Positions 11,441 to 55,693 of a stretch of 64,000 nucleotides of DNA are shown here, in pieces. The stretch lies in NCBI GenBank assembly GCA_004010535.1, contig RQYE01000005.1:124001-188000 (forward strand), given 5' to 3'. The stretch comes from Coriobacteriales bacterium OH1046. Its GTDB lineage: Bacteria > Actinomycetota > Coriobacteriia > Coriobacteriales > Atopobiaceae. The position numbers and the translations under genes were made by a program. Position 1 is the first letter of the stretch; the number at the start of each line of letters is the position of its first letter. The notes beneath the pieces are model-generated. The model had not been told where the DNA came from. It saw only the letters and a program-made list of their open reading frames with translations, and made no database searches.

Positions 11441-12508
11441 CTATTCCTGAGCACGCACCTTGCGGGCGATACGGTCGGCAAGCGAGAGCTTCTCGCGACG
11501 GTCGCCACCCCAGAATGCCACCGCGACCATGCCCGGACCCACATGGGCGCCGAGCACCGGCGAGATGACGCTGCGGATGATGAGCAGGCCCTCGCAGCCC
11601 TTCTCCTTGCGCAGGTGATCCTCGAGCCAATCCGCATCCTTCTTGGCATCGGCGTGCATGACGGCAACCGGAAGCGACAGGTCCTGGCACCAGTTCTCGC
11701 GGAAATCGGACACGAGGGCGCGCAGGGCCTTCTTGCGGCCGCGGCAGACGCCCTTCAGGGTGAGCGAGCCGTTGAGATCGTAGGAGAGCACCGGCTTGAT
11801 ATCGAGCTTGCCGCCCAGCTGCGCCGCAGCCGGGGGAATACGTCCGCCTGCTGCCAAGGCATCGAAGCTATCGAGCGTGAAGTAGCCTTGGATGTAGTAG
11901 CGCGCCTCCTTGGCCCACTCGTAAAGCTCGGCTGCGCTAGCGCCGTTGCCGGCAAGGCGGACCGCCTCGACGGTTAGGAGCTCCGCTGCAGCAGAGGGGC
12001 AGAGGTTGTCGATCACGTAGAACTCGAAATCCGGATAGGCCTCGGCGATCATATCCCGGGCCTGCTCGGCGGAGTTGATGCTCGATGAGAGGCCCCCCGT
12101 GAAACCGAGATAGAGGGTGGGCGTGCCTGCCTTGGCAGCGCGCTCGAAGACCTCGTAGTAATAACCGGGCGTGACGGCAGACGTGGTGATGCGGACACCG
12201 GCGCGCATCTTCGCATAGAAATCCTGGTAGGCGGTCGACTGCCAGATGTCGTCGATATGCTCGACGCCGTCGACCACATAGGGGAACCCGATGATCTCGA
12301 CGCCGAGGCGATCGGCGACCTTGGGGGCGAAATCCGCGCAGGAATCGACGATGATATGGACATCGCGGTGCGCCTTGAACGCACGCACCGCCTTGACGAC
12401 CTCCGTGGGGACGAAGTTATGGTTCGGAGTGGTCACGCCCTCAAGATCGTAGGCATCCTCCGGTTTACGGACGTAAGCGCCTTGCCCCTCTTGGTTCAGC
12501 TCAGTCAT
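11441..12508 (-). CDS. DegV family fatty-acid-binding protein
   Basis: This 355-residue DegV protein binds a fatty acyl chain. It contains VHIIVDSCADFAPKVADRLGV, ITTSAVTPGYYYEVFERA with the TS acyl-contacting motif, FTGGLSSSINSAEQA, and the domain-2 sequence LDSFDALAAGGRIPPAAAQLGGKLDIKPVLS. DegV-type proteins (FakB) can hand exogenous fatty acids to a FakA kinase; no fakA is in the window. It has an N-terminal extension of about 45 residues. The start at 12508 follows GAGGAGGAG and overlaps the end of the hpf gene by 8 bases. Confidence 0.9.
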   Translation of the reverse strand: MTELNQEGQGAYVRKPEDAYDLEGVTTPNHNFVPTEVVKAVRAFKAHRDVHIIVDSCADFAPKVADRLGVEIIGFPYVVDGVEHIDDIWQSTAYQDFYAKMRAGVRITTSAVTPGYYYEVFERAAKAGTPTLYLGFTGGLSSSINSAEQARDMIAEAYPDFEFYVIDNLCPSAAAELLTVEAVRLAGNGASAAELYEWAKEARYYIQGYFTLDSFDALAAGGRIPPAAAQLGGKLDIKPVLSYDLNGSLTLKGVCRGRKKALRALVSDFRENWCQDLSLPVAVMHADAKKDADWLEDHLRKEKGCEGLLIIRSVISPVLGAHVGPGMVAVAFWGGDRREKLSLADRIARKVRAQE

Positions 12509-13088
12509 GCTCCTCCTCGATCTTGGGCTTGATGATGCCGTAGCCTCCATTCTTACGATGGTAGATGACATTGATAAGCCCTGTGGTGGCATTCGTAAAC
12601 ACATAGAAATCATGGCCGAGCAGGTCGGTCTGGACGAGGGCCTCCTCCTCGGTCATGGGCGGCAAGTCGATGACCTTCTCGCGGACGAGCACCTCGTCAT
12701 CCTCATCCTCGCCGGATCCGACGATGAGATCGGCGAGATCCTCGATATTGGCGGGAACGGCGATGCGGCCGCCCTTCTGGCGGCGATCGACCACGCGGGT
12801 CTTGTATTTGCGGAGCTGGCGCGAGGCCTTGTCGGCGGCGGCATCGATGGCGGCGTACATATCGTCTCCCGAGGCGACCACGCGCACGACGTTATCGCGG
12901 ACGAAGACCGTGACCTCGCACGATTTGCGTTCGAGATTGGAGGGGTTCTTGTCGACACGCAATACGCAATCGCAGGTCATAGGCGAGATGTCGAAGACCT
13001 TGAGCGCGGACCCCAGCTTGTCTTCCACATGGGAACGCAGGGCATCGGTGATGGTGACCTTGCGACCGGAGATTCTGATATCGACCAT
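12501..13088 (-). CDS. hpf: long-form ribosome hibernation-promoting factor
   Basis: At 195 residues this is the long HPF type found in most Gram-positive bacteria. The N-terminal RaiA/YfiA domain binds the 30S decoding region (MVDIRISGRKVTITDALRSHVEDKL, SCEVTVFVRDNVVRVVASGDDMYAAIDAAADKASRQLRKYK). After an acidic linker the C-terminal dimerisation domain ends DFYVFTNATTGLINVIYHRKNGGYGIIKP, which drives 100S ribosome dimers in resting cells. It is transcribed with degV, whose start it overlaps. Confidence 0.95.
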   Translation of the reverse strand: MVDIRISGRKVTITDALRSHVEDKLGSALKVFDISPMTCDCVLRVDKNPSNLERKSCEVTVFVRDNVVRVVASGDDMYAAIDAAADKASRQLRKYKTRVVDRRQKGGRIAVPANIEDLADLIVGSGEDEDDEVLVREKVIDLPPMTEEEALVQTDLLGHDFYVFTNATTGLINVIYHRKNGGYGIIKPKIEEEHD

Positions 13089-13287: not shown

Positions 13288-14163
13288 CTACCCGAGCCCT
13301 TGGATCACGCTCGCGTTGGTGGCATTGGGCATACCCGCGATCCATGCGGCGCGCACGAGCGCCACAAGGCCGTTGGTTTGGATGGTATCGAGTGCGGATT
13401 GGACGTTGACCTGCAATGCCGTATTATCGGCCGCGACGGCGATACCCTCGGCGGTGGGCACATCGAGCGTCCCGGCCAAGGAGATACTGGGGTAGAAGGA
13501 GGCCAGGTAGGCACCCGAATAGAGATCGCAGCACACATAGTCGACCTCGCCGGCGGCAAGCGCCTCGAAGGCCTCGTTAAGGTTGCCGTAGCTGGTCTCG
13601 AGCATGCGCAGATCGGTCTGGGAGAGCAGGCGCTGCGAGATGGAGCCGCCCTGCAGGCCGACGGTCCTGCCCGTGAGGTCCTCGGTGGAGAGCGTTGCCG
13701 CCTCGCCCACGCGGAAGATGGCCGAGGCGCTCTCGGAGTACGCGCCCACGACGGTTGCGCTGCCGGCGTCGCCCACCTCGACGTTCATGACGATATCGCA
13801 CTCGGTGCCGAGCGCCGCATCGACGGTGGTGACGTTGACGAAGCGCACCTTGAGGCCCATGGCGTCGGCGAGCAGGGAGGCGATCTCGATGTCCATGCCC
13901 ATGACCTCGCCGCCTGCCTGGGTGATGCAGAAGGGCGCAGTGGTCTCCGCCGTGCGCAGGCCCACGGTGAGATAGCCCTCCTCGAGGATGACCGGGGTGG
14001 AGACGGTGGGTGCATGCTGGGCCTCCTTGGCGGCGATGGCCTCCTCGACCGACGTGGGCGTGAGGATCCCGTCGATCGTCCCCTTGGGATCGCAGGCGGT
14101 CGTGCCGAGTGCCACGGCGCATGCCACGGCGCAGCTTGCAAGGATGCGGATGTAGGTTCTCAT
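13288..14163 (-). CDS. amino-acid-type ABC transporter substrate-binding lipoprotein
   Basis: This 291-residue family 3 solute-binding protein has a lipoprotein signal peptide (hydrophobic stretch then ALGTTAC, lipid-modified Cys24). The two-lobe binding fold follows with VGLRTAETTAPFCI, GMDIEIASLLADAMGLKVRFVNV, LTGRTVGLQGGSISQRLL and GEVDYVCCDLYSGAYL. It should sit on the outer face of the membrane and bind an amino acid or related polar compound. No permease or ATPase is adjacent, so partners are elsewhere or it is a sensor. The start at 14163 has GAGAGG upstream. Confidence 0.88.
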   Translation of the reverse strand: MRTYIRILASCAVACAVALGTTACDPKGTIDGILTPTSVEEAIAAKEAQHAPTVSTPVILEEGYLTVGLRTAETTAPFCITQAGGEVMGMDIEIASLLADAMGLKVRFVNVTTVDAALGTECDIVMNVEVGDAGSATVVGAYSESASAIFRVGEAATLSTEDLTGRTVGLQGGSISQRLLSQTDLRMLETSYGNLNEAFEALAAGEVDYVCCDLYSGAYLASFYPSISLAGTLDVPTAEGIAVAADNTALQVNVQSALDTIQTNGLVALVRAAWIAGMPNATNASVIQGLG

Positions 14164-14206: not shown

Positions 14207-14473
14207 CGACCTGTTTCCCCCTGGCTGACCTGGTCTTTGCCCCCACACTCGCGCACCGGGGCCTTCGCTTCGGGGCCACGGCCCCTCACTGGCAACCCTC
14301 TCGCTCGCGAGGCGGCATGCCTCTGGATAGGAGAACGAGCGGTGCGGCTTACCTCTAGGACGAGCCATGCTCGCAGGCGCGCTCACGCCCCTGCTTACGT
14401 GGATCCTTTCGGCCTCGTCTGCCATGGACTAGGATGTGCATCCGCAACCACAGACCCAGGGTGAAACAGATAC
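14207..14473 (-). ncRNA. candidate structured RNA, about 267 nt, class unknown
   Basis: The minus strand between comF and the binding-lipoprotein gene folds into a closed structure. Bases 14473-14456 pair with 14224-14207 (CTGTTTCACCCTGG with CCAGGGGGAAACAG plus four outer pairs, one A-G mismatch). A second helix pairs TGGTTGC near 14450-14444 with GCAAAGACCA near 14240-14231. Inside lie the hairpins GGAT-GCAC-ATCC, GCAGG...CCTGC and CGAGC-ATG-GCTCG. The first paired base falls six bases after a TATAAT box. It could be a 6S-like or other free RNA, or a structured 5' leader of the lipoprotein gene. I could not match it to SRP RNA, RNase P RNA, tmRNA or a riboswitch. Confidence 0.6.
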
Positions 14474-14478
14474 TGGCT

Positions 14479-14484
14479 ATTATA
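14479..14484 (-). promoter_or_regulatory. -10 box of the candidate RNA
   Basis: A consensus TATAAT, preceded by TTGC, lies on the minus strand six bases ahead of the closing stem of the candidate RNA. No good -35 is visible at 17 bases; the upstream part overlaps the 3' end of comF. Confidence 0.6.
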
Positions 14485-14493
14485 GCAACTTAC

Positions 14494-15234
14494 TCACCAA
14501 ACGCGGCACAAAGCGCAGGCGGTGACCGCTGCGGCACCGCGAGACAAGAGGGCCCGGGCCCCCTCGCGCAGGGACGCGCCCGTGGTGATGACATCGTCGA
14601 TGAGAAGGATCCGCAGGTCGGAGAGATCTTCGAGAGCATAGATGGAGCCCTCCAGATTGGCCGCGCGTTCCTCGCGGGAGAGGCCGCGCTGGTCGCGGAC
14701 GCTCGAGCGCACGAGGATGTCGGCAAGAGGCAGGCCCGTCTCGTGCGCGAGCTCGCGGGCGACGAGTTCCATGTGGTCGTATCCGCGGCGGGCATAGGCC
14801 CCGGCGGTGGCAGGCACGAAGGCGAGGGCGTCGAGTCCGCCGGGATCGTAGCGCGGACGACCGTCGCGGGCGGGCCAGGAGGATGCCTCGTCGAGAGTTG
14901 TGGCGAGGGCGGCCGCGATGACGGGCGCCAGGCGAAGCTCATGATGGTCCTTGAAGGCGGTGACTGTCCGTGCAGCCGCATCCCCGAAGGTCCACGCGCA
15001 GACGGTTGCGCGCAGCTCCCATTCGTGCGCGCATTCGGTGCAGGTCAGCCAGCCGAATGGCGCGCCGCAGTCGGGACAGGCCCACCGCTGGGCGATCCAC
15101 GGCAGATCCGTGCGGCAGCGCTCGCAGAGAAGCTCATCGGGATACCCGCATCCGATGCAGCAGGTGGGCCAGAGGAGCTCGGCGAGCGTGTCGGCGAGAC
15201 TGCGGCAGATGCGGGGAAGGGATCTCATGGGCAT
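14494..15234 (-). CDS. comF: ComF family phosphoribosyltransferase-like protein
   Basis: This protein of about 246 residues has an N-terminal zinc-finger region (CCIGCG, CERC, CPDC, CTEC) and a C-terminal type I phosphoribosyltransferase fold. The PRPP loop is ILLIDDVITTGAS, and YDHMELVARELAHETGLPL precedes it. ComF proteins take part in natural DNA uptake in competent bacteria, although many carriers are not known to be competent. The start at 15234 lies 6 bases after GAGAGG; the ATG at 15240 abuts that site. Confidence 0.88.
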   Translation of the reverse strand: MPMRSLPRICRSLADTLAELLWPTCCIGCGYPDELLCERCRTDLPWIAQRWACPDCGAPFGWLTCTECAHEWELRATVCAWTFGDAAARTVTAFKDHHELRLAPVIAAALATTLDEASSWPARDGRPRYDPGGLDALAFVPATAGAYARRGYDHMELVARELAHETGLPLADILVRSSVRDQRGLSREERAANLEGSIYALEDLSDLRILLIDDVITTGASLREGARALLSRGAAAVTACALCRVW

Positions 15235-15352
15235 GCGCATCCTCTCGCGTGGCGCGAGCAGAGATGCGGTACGTGCAAGGATAGCATACGCGCAGCCGAT
15301 GGCGGCTGCGATCGATCGCAGCCCGGAGAAGCGGCGTGCGCACCCCTTTGTG

Positions 15353-16075
15353 CTAGACGCCTCTCGTCGCCGTGCTGTAGAAGGTGAAGTGATCGGGACG
15401 ATGGCGCGATTGCGTGCACTCGATCATGATCCCATCGCTCCTGAAGACCTGGCCCGTCACCACCGCGAGGAAGTCGTATCCGTCGAGGTCGAGCAATCTC
15501 GCGTCGAGCTCCGTGGCGCGCTCCGCGGTGATGGCGCGCTTGGAGGTGGCGATCGCGATGCCGAGCTCGTTCTCGAAGAACTCGTAGATGGATTTCTCGG
15601 CGATCTCGGGCGTGAGGCCATCCACCGCGCTTTTGAGGAAATAGCTCCTGTCGAGGATGAGAGCGGCACCATCGAGCAGGCGGATGCGCTCCACATATAC
15701 GAGCTCCTCCCCCCGCGCGAAGCCGGTGGCCTTCGAGATGCGGGCGTCGGCAACGGCATCGTGGAAGGCGCTCACGCGCGTGGCGACGTTAAGGCGGTTG
15801 CGAGCCGCCGTCTCCTTGAACGATTCGATACCGCCGAGCACGAAACCGGCACGTTCGAGCGGCCGGTAGATAACGCGGACGCCCTTGCCCTGGATGGGAT
15901 GCACATAGCCCTCGCCGGCAAGGAGGCCGAGGGCTTTGCGGATGGTGTTGTGCGAGCAGCCGAATTCTGCGATGAACTCGTTCTCGGAGGGGAGGAAGCC
16001 CTGATAGGCGTAATCCCCCGCCTCGATGCGGCTGCGGATTATCCGATAGATGCCGTCGTATACTGCACGTACCAT
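15353..16075 (-). CDS. treR: trehalose operon repressor, GntR/HutC family
   Basis: The 240-residue regulator has an N-terminal winged helix (residues about 1-70, with SENEFIAEFGCSHNTIRKALGLLAGEGYVHPIQGKG) and a UTRA ligand-binding domain ending YDFLAVVTGQVFRSDGIMIECTQSRHRPDHFTFYSTA. It is divergent from the trehalose PTS and hydrolase genes, which identifies it as TreR, expected to release DNA on binding trehalose 6-phosphate. The start at 16075 has AGGAAG upstream. Its own promoter overlaps the two operators, so it is probably autoregulated. Confidence 0.92.
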   Translation of the reverse strand: MVRAVYDGIYRIIRSRIEAGDYAYQGFLPSENEFIAEFGCSHNTIRKALGLLAGEGYVHPIQGKGVRVIYRPLERAGFVLGGIESFKETAARNRLNVATRVSAFHDAVADARISKATGFARGEELVYVERIRLLDGAALILDRSYFLKSAVDGLTPEIAEKSIYEFFENELGIAIATSKRAITAERATELDARLLDLDGYDFLAVVTGQVFRSDGIMIECTQSRHRPDHFTFYSTATRGV

Positions 16076-16162
16076 GGTGGATGCTCTTCCTGCAAGGCGG
16101 GTTGCCGACTTACTCCGATATGATACGGCAATCTCGTCCACCGTTCTCCGAAATAACCCTTT

Positions 16163-16178
16163 ACTTATTTGAATAAGT
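16163..16178. promoter_or_regulatory. TreR operator 1
   Basis: ACTTATTTGAATAAGT has perfect 7-base arms around TG. The same palindrome recurs 33 bp away, about three helical turns, between the divergent treR and treP starts. Confidence 0.85.
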
Positions 16179-16205
16179 ATGCCATCATCATCTCAACTTA
16201 TTCAA
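16176..16205 (-). promoter_or_regulatory. treR promoter
   Basis: On the minus strand TTGAAT (16205-16200) and CATACT (16181-16176) are 18 bases apart. The -35 lies inside operator 2 and the -10 touches operator 1. Confidence 0.6.
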
Positions 16206-16213
16206 ATAAGTTG
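16194..16213. promoter_or_regulatory. TreR operator 2
   Basis: CAACTTATTCAAATAAGTTG has 9-base arms around CA and shares ACTTATT/AATAAGT with operator 1. It lies 60 bases ahead of the treP start. Confidence 0.85.
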
Positions 16214-16272
16214 TCCAAAGCTCGACCCAAGAGCATCCAGGCAAGGGGTCGTCCCCGGAAAAGGAGGAGAGG

Positions 16273-18237
16273 GTGGCAAAGTATACTGAGGATGCGGAGA
16301 AGCTCCTTGGCCTCGTCGGAGGCAAAGACAACATCTCCCAAGCAGCGCACTGCATGACCCGTATGCGCTTCGTGCTCGTCGACCCCGCCAAGGCGGATGT
16401 TGCCGGCATCGAGGCCCTGCCCAGCGTCAAGGGCAGTTTCACCCAAGCCGGCCAGTTCCAAGTCATCATCGGTAACGACGTCGCGGATTTCCACAAGGAG
16501 TTCGTCGCCGTATCCGGCGTCTCCGAAGCTTCAAAAGACGACGTCAAGAGCGCGGCTGCAGCCAACCAGAACCCCATCCAGCGCGTCATGGGCGAGATCG
16601 CGGCCATCTTCGCCCCGCTCATCCCCGCCATCATCACCGGCGGCCTGATCCTGGGCTTCCGCAACGTCCTCGGCGACATGCCCTACTTCGGTCCCGACGG
16701 CACGAGCACCCTCGCCTCGCTCTCGCAGTTCTGGACCGGGGTCAACCACTTCCTATGGCTCATCGGCGAGGCCGTCTTCCATCTCGGCATCCCCGTGGGC
16801 ATCTGCTGGTCGATCACCAACCGCATGGGCGGAACCCCCATGCTGGGCATCGTGCTCGGCCTCACGCTCGTCTCGAGCCAACTCTTGAACGCCTACGGCG
16901 TGCCCAGCGCAACCGCCGAGACGTGGGCGACCTACTCGTGGAACTTCGGCGTCGCCCAGGTTCACATGGTGGGGTATCAGGCACAGGTCATCCCCGCTAT
17001 CCTCGCCGCCGTGGTCTTCAACTACCTCGAGCGTTTCTTCAAGAAGATCACTCCCACCGTGGTGCAGATGATCGTCGTTCCCTTCTGCTCGCTGCTCCTC
17101 GGCGTCATCGCCGCCCACTTCATCCTCGGCCCCATCGGCTGGGCGATCGGCTCCTGGATCTCCGACATCGTCATGGCGGGCATCACGAGCCCCTTCCGCT
17201 GGCTCTTCGGCATCATCTTCGGCGCCTTCTACGCCCCGCTGGTGATCACCGGTCTGCACCATATGACCAACGCGGTTGATATGCAGCTCATCGCCGCCTC
17301 CGGTGGCACTATGCTCTGGCCCATGATCGCCCTCTCCAACATCGCTCAAGGTTCCTCGGTCCTCGCCATGTCCGTCCTGCAGAGGAGAAACGAGGGTGCC
17401 CAGCAGATCAACATCCCCTCCTGCATCTCCTGCTACCTCGGCGTCACCGAGCCCGCCATCTTCGGCGTCAACCTCAAATACATCTTCCCGTTCGTATGTT
17501 CGATGATCGGTTCCGGCATCGCAGGCGGCCTCTGCACGCTCACCTCCGTCACGGCCAATGCCATCGGGGTCGGCGGGCTTCCCGGCATCCTCTCCATCCA
17601 GCCTCAGTTCATCCTCAGCTTCGCCCTGTGCATGCTCGTCTCCATCGCCGTGCCCTTCGCCCTCACCTACATAGTGGGCAAGCATCGCGGGATCGGGAAT
17701 GAAGCCGGTCGTGCCGCCGCGCCCGCCGGTACGGGCGATAGCGTTGCCGCCCCTTTCGCGGCTCCGGCGGCACGCCTCGAGACCGCATCCGCCGTATCTC
17801 CCGTGAGCGGGGATCTCATGGAGCTCTCCCGCGTGGATGACGGCGTCTTCTCTGCCGGCATGATGGGCGAGGGCGTGGCCATCGTCCCCACCGGCTCCGT
17901 GGCCGTATCCCCTGTCGCGGGAACCGTCACCGCCGTGATCGAGGATTCCAAGCATGCCGTGGGCATCACCACCGACGACGGGATCGAGTTCCTCGTGCAC
18001 GTGGGGCTGGATACCGTCGACATGAAGGGCAAGGGCTTCGAGCTCTTCTGCCGGCAGGGCGATCGCGTGGCCGTCGGCGACAAGCTCCTCTCCTTCGACC
18101 GTGCCGCCATCGCCGAGGCCGGTCATCCCGACATCGTTGTGCTCATCGTGACGGATAGGGGCAGGGCCTCGGGTCTCGACATCAAGAGCAAAGGGCACGT
18201 CAGGGCAGGCGATGACAAGATCATCTCCTTCTCGTGA
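16273..18237 (+). CDS. treP: PTS trehalose-specific EIIBCA
   Basis: This 654-residue permease imports trehalose and phosphorylates it to trehalose 6-phosphate. Domain order is EIIB (phospho-Cys27 in ISQAAHCMTRMRFVL), then EIIC with about ten membrane segments and GLHHMTNAVDMQLI, then a full EIIA of the glucose type (GEGVAIVPTGSVAVSPVAGTV, active-site His in FLVHVGLDTVDM). The covalent EIIA means no separate Crr-like protein is needed. The GTG start at 16273 follows AGGAGG. Twin TreR operators lie upstream. Confidence 0.95.
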   Translation: MAKYTEDAEKLLGLVGGKDNISQAAHCMTRMRFVLVDPAKADVAGIEALPSVKGSFTQAGQFQVIIGNDVADFHKEFVAVSGVSEASKDDVKSAAAANQNPIQRVMGEIAAIFAPLIPAIITGGLILGFRNVLGDMPYFGPDGTSTLASLSQFWTGVNHFLWLIGEAVFHLGIPVGICWSITNRMGGTPMLGIVLGLTLVSSQLLNAYGVPSATAETWATYSWNFGVAQVHMVGYQAQVIPAILAAVVFNYLERFFKKITPTVVQMIVVPFCSLLLGVIAAHFILGPIGWAIGSWISDIVMAGITSPFRWLFGIIFGAFYAPLVITGLHHMTNAVDMQLIAASGGTMLWPMIALSNIAQGSSVLAMSVLQRRNEGAQQINIPSCISCYLGVTEPAIFGVNLKYIFPFVCSMIGSGIAGGLCTLTSVTANAIGVGGLPGILSIQPQFILSFALCMLVSIAVPFALTYIVGKHRGIGNEAGRAAAPAGTGDSVAAPFAAPAARLETASAVSPVSGDLMELSRVDDGVFSAGMMGEGVAIVPTGSVAVSPVAGTVTAVIEDSKHAVGITTDDGIEFLVHVGLDTVDMKGKGFELFCRQGDRVAVGDKLLSFDRAAIAEAGHPDIVVLIVTDRGRASGLDIKSKGHVRAGDDKIISFS

Positions 18238-18248
18238 CGTCGGCTCCG

Positions 18249-18274
18249 GACGGCTCGGCATAAGCCGAGCCGTC
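18249..18274 (+). terminator. intercistronic hairpin between treP and treC
   Basis: GACGGCTCGGC and GCCGAGCCGTC form a perfect 11-bp stem with an ATAA loop, followed by a pyrimidine-rich run (CCTTCCCCCTATT). It starts 11 bases after the treP stop. It may act as a partial terminator or stabilise treP mRNA so that treP and treC levels differ. Confidence 0.75.
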
Positions 18275-18357
18275 CCTTCCCCCTATTCGATACCTGCCAT
18301 GTGTGGTACACAATGTGCATAGGATGGCAGCCAGATTGCGCAGAGAGGTTCGGGAAC

Positions 18358-20034
18358 ATGACAGATCAGGAGCTCGGCCTTGGCCGCTGCGTGGTGTACC
18401 AGGTGTATCCCCGCTCCTTCCAAGATTCCAATGGAGACGGGATCGGCGACCTCCCCGGCATCACGAGCCGGCTCGACTACCTTGCCGACCTCGGCATCGA
18501 TTACCTATGGCTCACGCCGATCTTCGTCTCGCCGATGAACGACAACGGTTACGATATAGCCGACTACCGCTCGATCGACCCCGTCTTCGGTACCATGGCC
18601 GATTTCGAGGAGCTGGTCTTCGAGGCGGGTAAGCGCGGCATATCCATCATGCTCGACATGGTCTTCAACCACAGCTCCACGAGCCACGAGTGGTTCAGGC
18701 GGGCCGTCGCGGGCGAGAAAAGGTACCAAGACTACTATCTCTTCCGCGAGGGCGCACCGGACGCCCCCCCGACCAACTGGATCTCCAAATTCGGCGGCAG
18801 CGCCTGGGCATGGAGCGCGGAGGTCGGCAAATGGTATCTGCACCTTTTCGATGCCTCGCAGGCGGATCTCAACTGGGAGAATCCGGCCGTCATCGACGAG
18901 CTCGCCGACATCGTGCGCTTCTGGCGCGACAAGGGCGTGGGCGGGTTCCGCTTCGACGTGGTCAACCTCATCTCGAAACCAGATGCGCTTGAAGACGACT
19001 TCGAGGGGGATGGGAGGCGTTTCTATACCGATGGCCCCCGCGTGCACGAGCATATCCGGAAGCTGGTCGAGAAAGCCCGTATCTCCGATATGCTCACCGT
19101 CGGCGAGATGAGCTCGACTTCCATCGATAACTGCGTGCTCTACTCCGCCCCCCAAAACGAGGAGCTCGCGATGACGTTCTCCTTCCACCATCTCAAGGTG
19201 GACTACGGCGACGGCAACAAGTGGACGCTCAAAGAACCCGATATCGCCGAGCTGCGCCGGCTCTTCACGAGCTGGCAGGATGAGATGACCGAGGGTGGTG
19301 GATGGAATGCCCTCTTCTGGTCCAACCACGATCAACCGCGTCCGGTGACGCGGTTCGCCTGCGGTGGAGAGCTTCGCGCAACGAGCGCTAAGATGCTCGC
19401 CACCTGCATCCACCTCATGCGCGGCACGCCCTACATCTACCAGGGCGAGGAGCTGGGCATGGTCAATCCCGGTTTCACGCGCATCGACCAGTACCGCGAC
19501 GTGGAGAGCACCAACTACTACGGGATCCTGCGGGGCGAGGGCATGGGCGAGGGCGAGGCGCTGGCCATCCTCGCCGAGCGCTCGCGCGACAACGCGCGCA
19601 CGCCGATGCAATGGTCCGCCGAGAAGTGCGCGGGCTTCACCGCGGGCACGCCGTGGATCGAGGTCGCGGGCAACTACCACGAGATCAACGCCGAGAGCCA
19701 GCTGGGGGATGAGGATTCCGTTCTTGCCTACTACCGCCGCCTCATCAGGCTGCGCCGCCGGATGACGATCATCCAGTCGGGAGATGTGCGCTTCCTATCC
19801 GAGGACGAACTGGGCGGAGCCGAGAAGATCATCGCCTACGAGCGCTCGTATGGCGGCGAACGCCTGCTCGTGCTCTGCTCCTTCGATGAGCGCGAGGCCC
19901 TGCTCCCGCGTGGTCTTGTGACGGACGGCGCGCGCGTGCTCATCGGCAATCGTGCCGATAGCGTGGCGGGCCTCGCACTCGATGGCGAGACGTTCACGCT
20001 GCGCCCCTTCGAGGCCGTGGCGCTCATCAGCTAG
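18358..20034 (+). CDS. treC: alpha,alpha-phosphotrehalase (trehalose-6-phosphate hydrolase)
   Basis: This 558-residue GH13 enzyme splits trehalose 6-phosphate into glucose and glucose 6-phosphate in the cytoplasm. The (beta/alpha)8 active site is intact: nucleophile D200 in GGFRFDVVNLIS, acid/base E250 in TVGEMSS, and D325 in WSNHDQPRPVTR. FNHSSTSHEWF near residue 103 is also conserved. The start at 18358 (MTDQELG) has AGAGG upstream. An open frame extends to 18301 without family similarity. The stop overlaps the tatD stop on the other strand in CTAG. Confidence 0.93.
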   Translation: MTDQELGLGRCVVYQVYPRSFQDSNGDGIGDLPGITSRLDYLADLGIDYLWLTPIFVSPMNDNGYDIADYRSIDPVFGTMADFEELVFEAGKRGISIMLDMVFNHSSTSHEWFRRAVAGEKRYQDYYLFREGAPDAPPTNWISKFGGSAWAWSAEVGKWYLHLFDASQADLNWENPAVIDELADIVRFWRDKGVGGFRFDVVNLISKPDALEDDFEGDGRRFYTDGPRVHEHIRKLVEKARISDMLTVGEMSSTSIDNCVLYSAPQNEELAMTFSFHHLKVDYGDGNKWTLKEPDIAELRRLFTSWQDEMTEGGGWNALFWSNHDQPRPVTRFACGGELRATSAKMLATCIHLMRGTPYIYQGEELGMVNPGFTRIDQYRDVESTNYYGILRGEGMGEGEALAILAERSRDNARTPMQWSAEKCAGFTAGTPWIEVAGNYHEINAESQLGDEDSVLAYYRRLIRLRRRMTIIQSGDVRFLSEDELGGAEKIIAYERSYGGERLLVLCSFDEREALLPRGLVTDGARVLIGNRADSVAGLALDGETFTLRPFEAVALIS

Positions 20035-53405: not shown

Positions 53406-53662
53406 CTGGCCCATCTCCTTCTCATCAACTGCTTTTATTAATATCAATCGTTTCTATTTTTTTCTATTATATCGGTTCAATGCCCGATGGTTCAGACGAT
53501 GGACGATGGGCTGCGGGGCGGTCCAGCGCGATGTGCGCGCCGTCCGCTATCTAAGCCGCCACATCTCAATGCAGGAGAACAGGAAAACGTATGCGGAATT
53601 CGCAACTCGTAGCTTTGCCGTATCCGACAGGTCCCGTCCATGCTATGGTTATTGTATACAGA

Positions 53663-53735
53663 CGCGCTGTGACTGACGGAGATTCGCGGGCAACCGCGGT
53701 GGAGCAGCGCGTTACCTACCGCCGACCGTCTGGGC
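53663..53735 (+). ncRNA. ZTP (pfl) riboswitch aptamer
   Basis: All parts of the pfl/ZTP motif are present. P1 is CGCGCTG (53663-53669) paired with CAGCGCG (53705-53711), flanking TGACTGACGG and the conserved GGTGGAGC. P2 is CGCGG-GCAA-CCGCG. The 3' domain is CCGACCGTCTGGGC, matching the family core CCGCCTGGGC. The aptamer senses ZTP/ZMP, which build up when 10-formyl-tetrahydrofolate is short. The downstream genes purO and purH use exactly that pathway, and expression should rise when ZTP binds. Confidence 0.92.
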
Positions 53736-53766
53736 AAGCCATTTCATCTTTGGAATCGGCTTGCCC
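53732..53766 (+). terminator. expression-platform hairpin of the ZTP riboswitch
   Basis: GGGCAAGCC (53732-53740), whose first bases belong to the aptamer core CTGGGC, can pair with GGCTTGCCC (53758-53766) around 17 bases, followed by TTCG. Formation would break the aptamer, so ligand binding should prevent it. The U-tract is short, so termination may be weak. Confidence 0.75.
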
Positions 53767-53804: not shown

Positions 53805-54440
53805 GTGCGCAAACTCACCGACCTGCTCGCCAGCAATCCCTACCCCGGCCGCGGCATCGTGGTGGGCAGGGATTGCGTGTACTACTGGATCATGGGCCGC
53901 AGCGCCAACAGCCGCAACCGCATCTTCTCGGCAACGGATGACGGCATCAGGACCGAGGCGTACAGGCCCGAGCTCGTGGAGGATCCGAGCCTCATCATCT
54001 ACCATCCCGTACGCACGATGGGCGACGCGCTCGTGATCACGAACGGCGACCAGACCGATACCATCGTGGAGAAGGGCTGCTTCCGCTGCGGCCTCATGAC
54101 CCGTGCATACGAACCCGATGCGCCCAACTTCACCCCGCGCATCTCAGCCATCCTGAACGCCGACGGTTCCTTCGAGCTCTCGATACTCAAACACCAGGAG
54201 AACGGTCGCTGCCTGCGCGAGTTCTTCGCCTACGAGGGTGCCGACGAGGGCGTGGGCTACTTCATATCGACCTACGAGGGCGATGGCAACCCGTTGCCAT
54301 CCTTCTCGGGCGAGCCGATCGAGGTCGAGCTTGCCGCACCCGAAGCGGTCTGGGCTGCCTTGGATGACGATAACAAGGTCTCGATGTACGCCAATGTGCA
54401 CGGCGCGGTCACGCTCTTCAACAAGCATCTCGGCGACTAG
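53805..54440 (+). CDS. purO: IMP cyclohydrolase, PurO type
   Basis: PurO closes the ring of FAICAR to give IMP, the last step of purine synthesis. The 211-residue protein shows the archaeal-type family sequence: NPYPGRGIVVGRD, YYWIMGRSANSRNRIFS, TNGDQTDTI, YEPDAPNFTPRISA and GYFISTYEGDGNPLPSFSGEP. The GTG start at 53805 follows GAGAGGAG. It lies behind a ZTP riboswitch and before the AICAR transformylase gene, so the two purine genes replace the usual bifunctional PurH. Confidence 0.93.
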   Translation: MRKLTDLLASNPYPGRGIVVGRDCVYYWIMGRSANSRNRIFSATDDGIRTEAYRPELVEDPSLIIYHPVRTMGDALVITNGDQTDTIVEKGCFRCGLMTRAYEPDAPNFTPRISAILNADGSFELSILKHQENGRCLREFFAYEGADEGVGYFISTYEGDGNPLPSFSGEPIEVELAAPEAVWAALDDDNKVSMYANVHGAVTLFNKHLGD

Positions 54441-54511: not shown

Positions 54512-55693
54512 GTGAACGAGATCCAGCTCAAATACGGTATGAACCCCAACCAGAAGCCGTCGCGCATCTTCATGAGGGATGGGAGCGACCTTCCGGTGAC
54601 GGTACTCCAAGGTCGTCCCGGCTTCATCAACTTCCTCGACGCCCTGAACTCCTGGCAACTCGTCCGCGAGCTCAAGGAGGCCACCGGCATGCCCGCCGCC
54701 GCGAGCTTCAAGCATGTCTCCCCCGCAGGCGCCGCCGTGGGCAAGCCCCTCTCGTCCATCGACCGGCGCATCTACTTCGTGCCCGATGACATGGCTGAAC
54801 CCAGTCCGATCTCCTGCGCCTACATCCGCGCGCGGGGAGCAGACCGCATGAGCTCCTACGGCGACTTCGCAGCCCTGTCCGATACCTGCGATGCCGATGT
54901 GGCCCGCTACCTCAAGCCCGAGGTCTCCGACGGCATCATCGCCCCCGGCTACACCGAGGAGGCCCTCGCCATCCTCGCCGGGAAGCGCGGCGGTACCTAC
55001 AACGTCATCCAGATCGACCCCGCATACGTGTGCGCGCCGAGCGAGACCAAGGATGTTTTCGGCATCACCTTCGAACAAGGGCACAACTTCTTCAAGATCG
55101 ACCGAGAGCTGCTCTCCGATGTCGTGACCGCCAACAAGGACATCCCCGAGGAAGCTCTCATCGACATGATGATCAGCCTCATCACCCTCAAATACACGCA
55201 GTCCAACTCGGTCTGCTACGTCAAGGACGGACAGGCGATCGGCATAGGCGCCGGCCAGCAGAGCCGCGTCCACTGCACGCGCCTCGCGGGCGACAAGGCC
55301 GACACGTGGTACCTGCGCCAGCACCCCAAGGTGCTTGGCTTGCACTTCGCCGAGGGCATCAAGCGCGCCGACCGCGACAACGCCATCGACGTCTACATCG
55401 GGCCCGAGCACGACGACGTGCTCGCCGAGGGCGAGTGGCAGAAGTGGTTCGCCGAGCGGCCCGAGGTGCTGTCCCGCGAGGAGAAGGCCGCGTGGATTTC
55501 AACGCAGACCGGCGTGACCGTGGGCTCCGACGCGTTCTTCCCCTTCGGCGACAACGTGGAGCGCGCCCGCAAGAGCGGCGTGTGCTACATCGCCGAGCCC
55601 GGCGGCTCCATCCGCGACGACAACGTCATCGAGACCGCCGACAAGTACGGCATCGCGATGTGCTTCACCCACATGCGCCTCTTCCACCACTAA
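54512..55693 (+). CDS. purH: stand-alone AICAR transformylase (PurH C-terminal type)
   Basis: This 393-residue enzyme formylates AICAR with 10-formyl-tetrahydrofolate to give FAICAR. It contains the AICARFT domain only: LKYGMNPNQKPSRI, the catalytic KH in ASFKHVSPAGAAVG, SNSVCYVKDGQAIGIGAGQQSRVHCTRLAGDKAD and SDAFFPFGDNVERARKSGVCYIAEPGGSIRD. The N-terminal IMP cyclohydrolase domain of bifunctional PurH is absent and is replaced by purO just upstream. The GTG start follows AAGGAGGA. A strong terminator follows. Confidence 0.93.
   Translation: MNEIQLKYGMNPNQKPSRIFMRDGSDLPVTVLQGRPGFINFLDALNSWQLVRELKEATGMPAAASFKHVSPAGAAVGKPLSSIDRRIYFVPDDMAEPSPISCAYIRARGADRMSSYGDFAALSDTCDADVARYLKPEVSDGIIAPGYTEEALAILAGKRGGTYNVIQIDPAYVCAPSETKDVFGITFEQGHNFFKIDRELLSDVVTANKDIPEEALIDMMISLITLKYTQSNSVCYVKDGQAIGIGAGQQSRVHCTRLAGDKADTWYLRQHPKVLGLHFAEGIKRADRDNAIDVYIGPEHDDVLAEGEWQKWFAERPEVLSREEKAAWISTQTGVTVGSDAFFPFGDNVERARKSGVCYIAEPGGSIRDDNVIETADKYGIAMCFTHMRLFHH

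Follow-up and report, generated by a model that had tools for sequence, protein, structure and literature searches.

In the window, by which we mean the whole stretch of 64,000 nucleotides of Coriobacteriales bacterium OH1046 DNA analysed here, the spacer behind comF is almost certainly a gene for a raiA-motif (ModT) RNA of about 265 nt, with a predicted start near position 14472 at an extended -10 element and a fold closed by the long helix P1 and containing two pseudoknots. Its family membership, conserved structure, promoter box, place in the genome and single copy are established here, and by homology the RNA would be a stable, abundant, trans-acting product of housekeeping type, probably part of an RNA-protein particle, that aids the passage from growth to stationary phase. 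The spacer RNA is a copy of an already described family in its published neighborhood and is in this sense already known.

Identity, promoter box and predicted ends of the spacer RNA

Rfam models scanned over the whole window matched RF03072 (raiA RNA) on the minus strand with 163 bits (E 5.3e-41), which exceeds the gathering cut-off of 101.3 bits by 61.7 bits, and the source genome holds one raiA RNA copy. The match, the predicted RNA and the neighboring genes are placed as follows.

14494-15240, minus strand: comF (comFC-like phosphoribosyltransferase), upstream neighbor (TIGR00201 ComF family, E 1.6e-20; PF00156, Pribosyltran)
14479-14487, minus strand: extended -10 element TGCTATAAT, a perfect match; predicted start at about 14471-14473
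14207-14473, minus strand: predicted raiA-motif (ModT) RNA including the outer P1 extension, about 265 nt, its probable 3' end placed from the closing helix
14216-14464, minus strand: RF03072 match over the full model (Rfam, 163 bits, model positions 1-209 of 209)
13288-14163, minus strand: solute-binding lipoprotein (SBP, family 3), first downstream gene (PF00497, E 2.9e-10)
12501-13088, minus strand: hpf/raiA, long ribosome hibernation factor and the motif's namesake gene (PF02482, PF16321, TIGR00741)

An earlier note, made from the letters of the spacer, had described a closed structured RNA of about 267 nt with its own -10 box, and both the length and the box agree well with what was found. 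It had also taken the RNA to be undescribed; the Rfam scan that it proposed returned a known element, the outcome that it had itself named as counting against its reading, and the RNA is therefore not new. Its view that the spacer holds no RNase P RNA, SRP RNA or tmRNA was borne out. Between 14100 and 14600 no Rfam family besides RF03072 was matched with thresholds relaxed to E up to 1, including the models of 6S RNA, RNase P RNA, SRP RNA, tmRNA and other riboswitches, and ARAGORN found no tmRNA in the window; the 6S-like, tmRNA, RNase P and SRP readings were rejected on these scans. An RNA on the plus strand was likewise set aside, with its worse fold (z -1.15) and with Rfam matching the minus strand only.

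The TATAAT box lies at 14484-14479 on the minus strand, six bases before 14473, as the earlier note had it relative to the first paired base, with TGC directly in front; the predicted start falls about 22 bases past the comF stop. We read this extended -10 element by eye and then checked it in relatives, in an alignment of 30 homologs that counts the copy of the window and takes in flanks of 51 bases before and 30 bases after the RNA (41 bases before it in L016). A TAnnnT box stands at the same place in all 30 aligned sequences (T32, A33 and T37 of the alignment are invariant), which supports an independent start behind comF, and most of the 30 have TG one base upstream of the box. A sigma-70 scan called no promoter at the RNA locus because the -35 region is poor. 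A terminator scan found no intrinsic terminator behind the RNA, which may therefore also form the 5' part of an SBP-hpf message and need processing.

Occurrence and gene order among relatives

The raiA RNA was found above the cut-off in 54 of 60 related genomes (42 of 44 good assemblies) and in none of 14 control genomes. Named carriers include Olsenella profusa, Olsenella uli, Olegusella massiliensis, Thermophilibacter gallinarum, Tractidigestivibacter montrealensis, Atopobium deltae and Collinsella tanakaei; Veillonella parvula, outside the phylum, also carries it. A search with the HPF protein placed an uncultured Coriobacteriaceae bacterium (RUG14037, CADBJR010000009.1) nearest at 91% identity, followed by Olsenella species at about 75-78%. 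Four of the six relatives in which the RNA was not found (G002, G013, G050, and G054) are incomplete drafts. The apparent absence from a fifth, the good assembly G029, is due to an assembly gap at the locus, where comF is cut short by a stretch of N at the very place expected for the RNA (L135:8959-9095). The sixth, G049, is a good assembly without the RNA. In the draft G013, about 144 nt separate comF from the hpf gene behind it, and they contain neither raiA RNA nor SBP gene (L137:1740-3211); this is an apparent loss of both in a genome that is 57% complete, so that a copy elsewhere is possible.

Gene order was read over 12 kb in 19 relatives, one further extracted region (L047, whose RNA the motif search missed) being left out of the 20. 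Upstream of the RNA, comF is present in 18 of the 19. The SBP gene follows directly in 17, always on the same strand (17/17) and with 67-276 nt from the RNA to the gene match, and the other two keep the RNA without it. The hpf gene is near the RNA in all 19, in one of them on the opposite strand, and the DegV gene (degV), which also lies behind the RNA with hpf/raiA in the window, is near it in 18. This comF-RNA-SBP-hpf-degV order agrees with the published surroundings of raiA RNA, with comFC at 74% and raiA at 66% (PMC11706538) and periplasmic-binding-protein genes also among the neighbors (PMC11477304).

Two further features of the window were observed. Beside the comF-raiA RNA-hpf cluster, at 15353-20034, lies a trehalose-type set comprising a GntR/UTRA regulator close to TreR (minus strand) and genes for a PTS EIIBCA and an alpha-amylase family (TreC-like) protein (plus strand). 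A ZMP/ZTP riboswitch (RF01750, 57.8 bits) is found at 53659-53742 on the plus strand, and the open reading frames downstream of it on the same strand (53805-54440 and 54512-55693), their translations judged by eye, look like an IMP cyclohydrolase and an AICAR transformylase-like protein, which would be the expected arrangement.

Conserved fold and pseudoknots

Read on the minus strand, the two ends of the spacer pair over 14 positions with one A-G mismatch (CUGUUUCACCCUGG at 14469-14456 with CCAGGGGGAAACAG at 14224-14211), and the minimum-energy fold prolongs this closing helix by two to three pairs with a bulged U, to G14473-C14208. The earlier note had counted 18 complementary positions with one mismatch; the inner helix and hairpins it had listed were also recovered, as inner helices of the same strand. 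By folding energy, the minus-strand sequence taken singly stands out from its shuffles only to a moderate degree (z -2.34; 3 of 200 shuffles), and the plus strand is not unusual (z -1.15).

The family structure, including both pseudoknots, was set from the cryo-EM description (PMC11751092), the C. acetobutylicum numbering of which we mapped to the window sequence ourselves, and pairing was counted over the 30 homologs against 500 shuffles and slid versions of the structure. The elements, followed in the homolog alignment, are these.

14446-14469, minus strand: P1 5' strand (P1 extension, P1a, P1b, P1c), outer helix with both-side changes in 16 of 17 pairs
14432-14443, minus strand: P2 hairpin GGAU-GCAC-AUCC, covariation in 3 of 4 pairs; variable and missing in some family members
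14403-14429, minus strand: P3a/P3b with the 7-nt loop AGACGAG
14414-14419, minus strand: pk-1 5' half, GACGAG
14243-14402, minus strand: P4-closed domain, P4 being CCAC 14402-14399 with GUGG 14246-14243
14394-14373, minus strand: P5 hairpin
14366-14367, minus strand: pk-2 5' half, UG
14359-14364, minus strand: pk-1 3' half, CUCGUC
14346-14342 with 14256-14252, minus strand: P6, covaries
14341-14302, minus strand: P7 arm, covaries
14297-14260, minus strand: P8 arm, covaries
14238-14239, minus strand: pk-2 3' half, CA (in GGCAAAG, J4-1c)
14211-14235, minus strand: P1 3' strand

Standard pairs fill 94.2% of the cells over the 30 homologs, against 82.4% in the shuffles and 31-45% in the slid structures, and there are 302 double-changed cells against 103.7. 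The alignment of relatives for compensating changes that the earlier note had proposed bears its structure out, both partners having changed in 44 of 69 pairs against 29.8 in the shuffles. None of the 500 shuffles reached any of the observed pairing values. Helices P1-P8 are kept with compensating changes, except that P4 is invariant in the 30 sequences and therefore uninformative on pairing.

In the cryo-EM structure, pk-1 joins the P3 loop to the pk-Loop through seven pairs, and pk-2 joins the pk-Loop to J4-1c (PMC11751092). Judged by sequence, both are retained in the window RNA. All six positions of pk-1 pair in 30 of 30 sequences, with both-side changes at three of the six pairs. The two pairs of pk-2 form in 27 and 30 of 30 sequences, the U-A pair becoming C-G in two relatives and being broken in three.

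Compared with the raiA/ModT family (RF03072), the window RNA shares the whole model, the P1-P8 layout of large variant 2, both pseudoknots, comF upstream and hpf/raiA downstream, a predicted promoter of its own and a single copy; it is the large P6-P7-P8 domain that assigns it to variant 2 of PMC11751092. It differs in being G+C-rich and in a P1 that runs up to six pairs further outward than the Rfam model, an extension of which the innermost three pairs are well kept in relatives before it fades. It has the P2 hairpin, which the C. difficile raiA RNA is without, and lacks the terminator hairpin of the long C. difficile isoform.

Could the pairing be no more than chance inverted repeats in G+C-rich spacer DNA? 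The single-sequence energy, with a z of only -2.3, would be in keeping with that, but the RNA is present in 54 of 60 relatives and the covariation over 30 sequences lies far above the shuffled and slid controls, for which reasons we accept the structure as real and reject chance repeats as wholly improbable. An unrelated new RNA family, the novelty that the earlier note had in mind, deserves just as little credence: nothing speaks for it once Rfam has been scanned, and the full-length RF03072 match of 163 bits rules it out, with both pseudoknots and the neighboring genes fitting the raiA family.

Proposed mode of action and possible relation to ribosome hibernation

The functional work on raiA/ModT RNA drawn on here comes entirely from clostridia and other Bacillota. 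The RNA is stable and acts in trans in C. difficile (PMC11706538), and trans complementation was likewise obtained in C. acetobutylicum, as cited in that paper. If the OH1046 copy behaves as its relatives do, RNA polymerase would start at about 14472, using the extended -10 promoter next to the end of comF, and the transcript of about 265 nt would fold around P1 and the two pseudoknots. It would then be released as a stable and abundant trans-acting RNA of the housekeeping type, probably enter an RNA-protein particle and assist the cell in the change from growth to stationary phase. That it is transcribed in the source organism, and that it acts there in trans, is thus predicted from homology.

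A different reading gives the OH1046 RNA a chiefly cis-acting role, as a leader resembling a riboswitch in front of the SBP/hpf genes, which is close to the large leader of the binding-lipoprotein gene that the earlier note had offered as its alternative. Rfam labels RF03072 as cis-regulatory, RNA and SBP gene share a strand in each of the 17 relatives that have them adjacent, and no terminator was found between the two. The distance from RNA to gene match, however, varies over the relatives (67-276 nt), two of the 19 keep the RNA without the SBP gene, and hpf is on the other strand in one; moreover, trans complementation in the two clostridia (PMC11706538, for C. acetobutylicum as cited there) excludes a cis role in those two species. 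We therefore consider a leader function in the main unlikely. With no terminator between them, an additional cis role for the SBP gene is possible, though we do not favor it over the trans-acting RNA.

As such an RNA, the OH1046 copy can be set beside other large bacterial RNAs. It shares with 6S RNA a long helix closing both ends and the housekeeping type, but it has no Rfam 6S match, and its multibranched pseudoknotted core is unlike the rod with a central bubble of 6S RNA. OLE RNA offers a parallel, drawn in PMC11706538: it too is a bacterial RNA of large size, conserved, with biochemistry yet to be solved and active in phases of stress or transition. It is nonetheless unrelated in sequence and structure, about 600 nt long and without an Rfam match in the window spacer.

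The relatives also bear on what raiA RNA does in general. A GGDEF (c-di-GMP synthase) domain was detected in 31 of the 60 relatives (22 of the 44 good assemblies), and the source genome has one. Of the 22 good assemblies in which no GGDEF domain was detected, 21 carry the RNA when the lists are compared by hand, the exception being G049. The Spo0A C-terminal domain was found in none of the 60, with a positive B. subtilis control. It follows that the effects on c-di-GMP and sporulation known from clostridia cannot be what raiA RNA does in general, and that its function may dispense with both c-di-GMP synthesis and sporulation; for sporulation this had already been argued from the presence of the RNA in non-spore-formers (PMC11706538). 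We give an even chance to a further step, namely that the basic function is independent of both, the clostridial phenotypes being secondary, and is perhaps tied to ribosome hibernation, a tie suggested by hpf staying beside the RNA.

To add one copy to a family that has been described is in itself unremarkable. The interest lies in the family, a widespread Gram-positive RNA as abundant as housekeeping RNAs and with a solved structure. To this the Coriobacteriia data make a small addition, in that they constrain models centering ModT function on c-di-GMP or sporulation. With their tight comF-RNA-SBP-hpf order, the Coriobacteriia are Gram-positive hosts suited to probing a possible link to ribosome hibernation.
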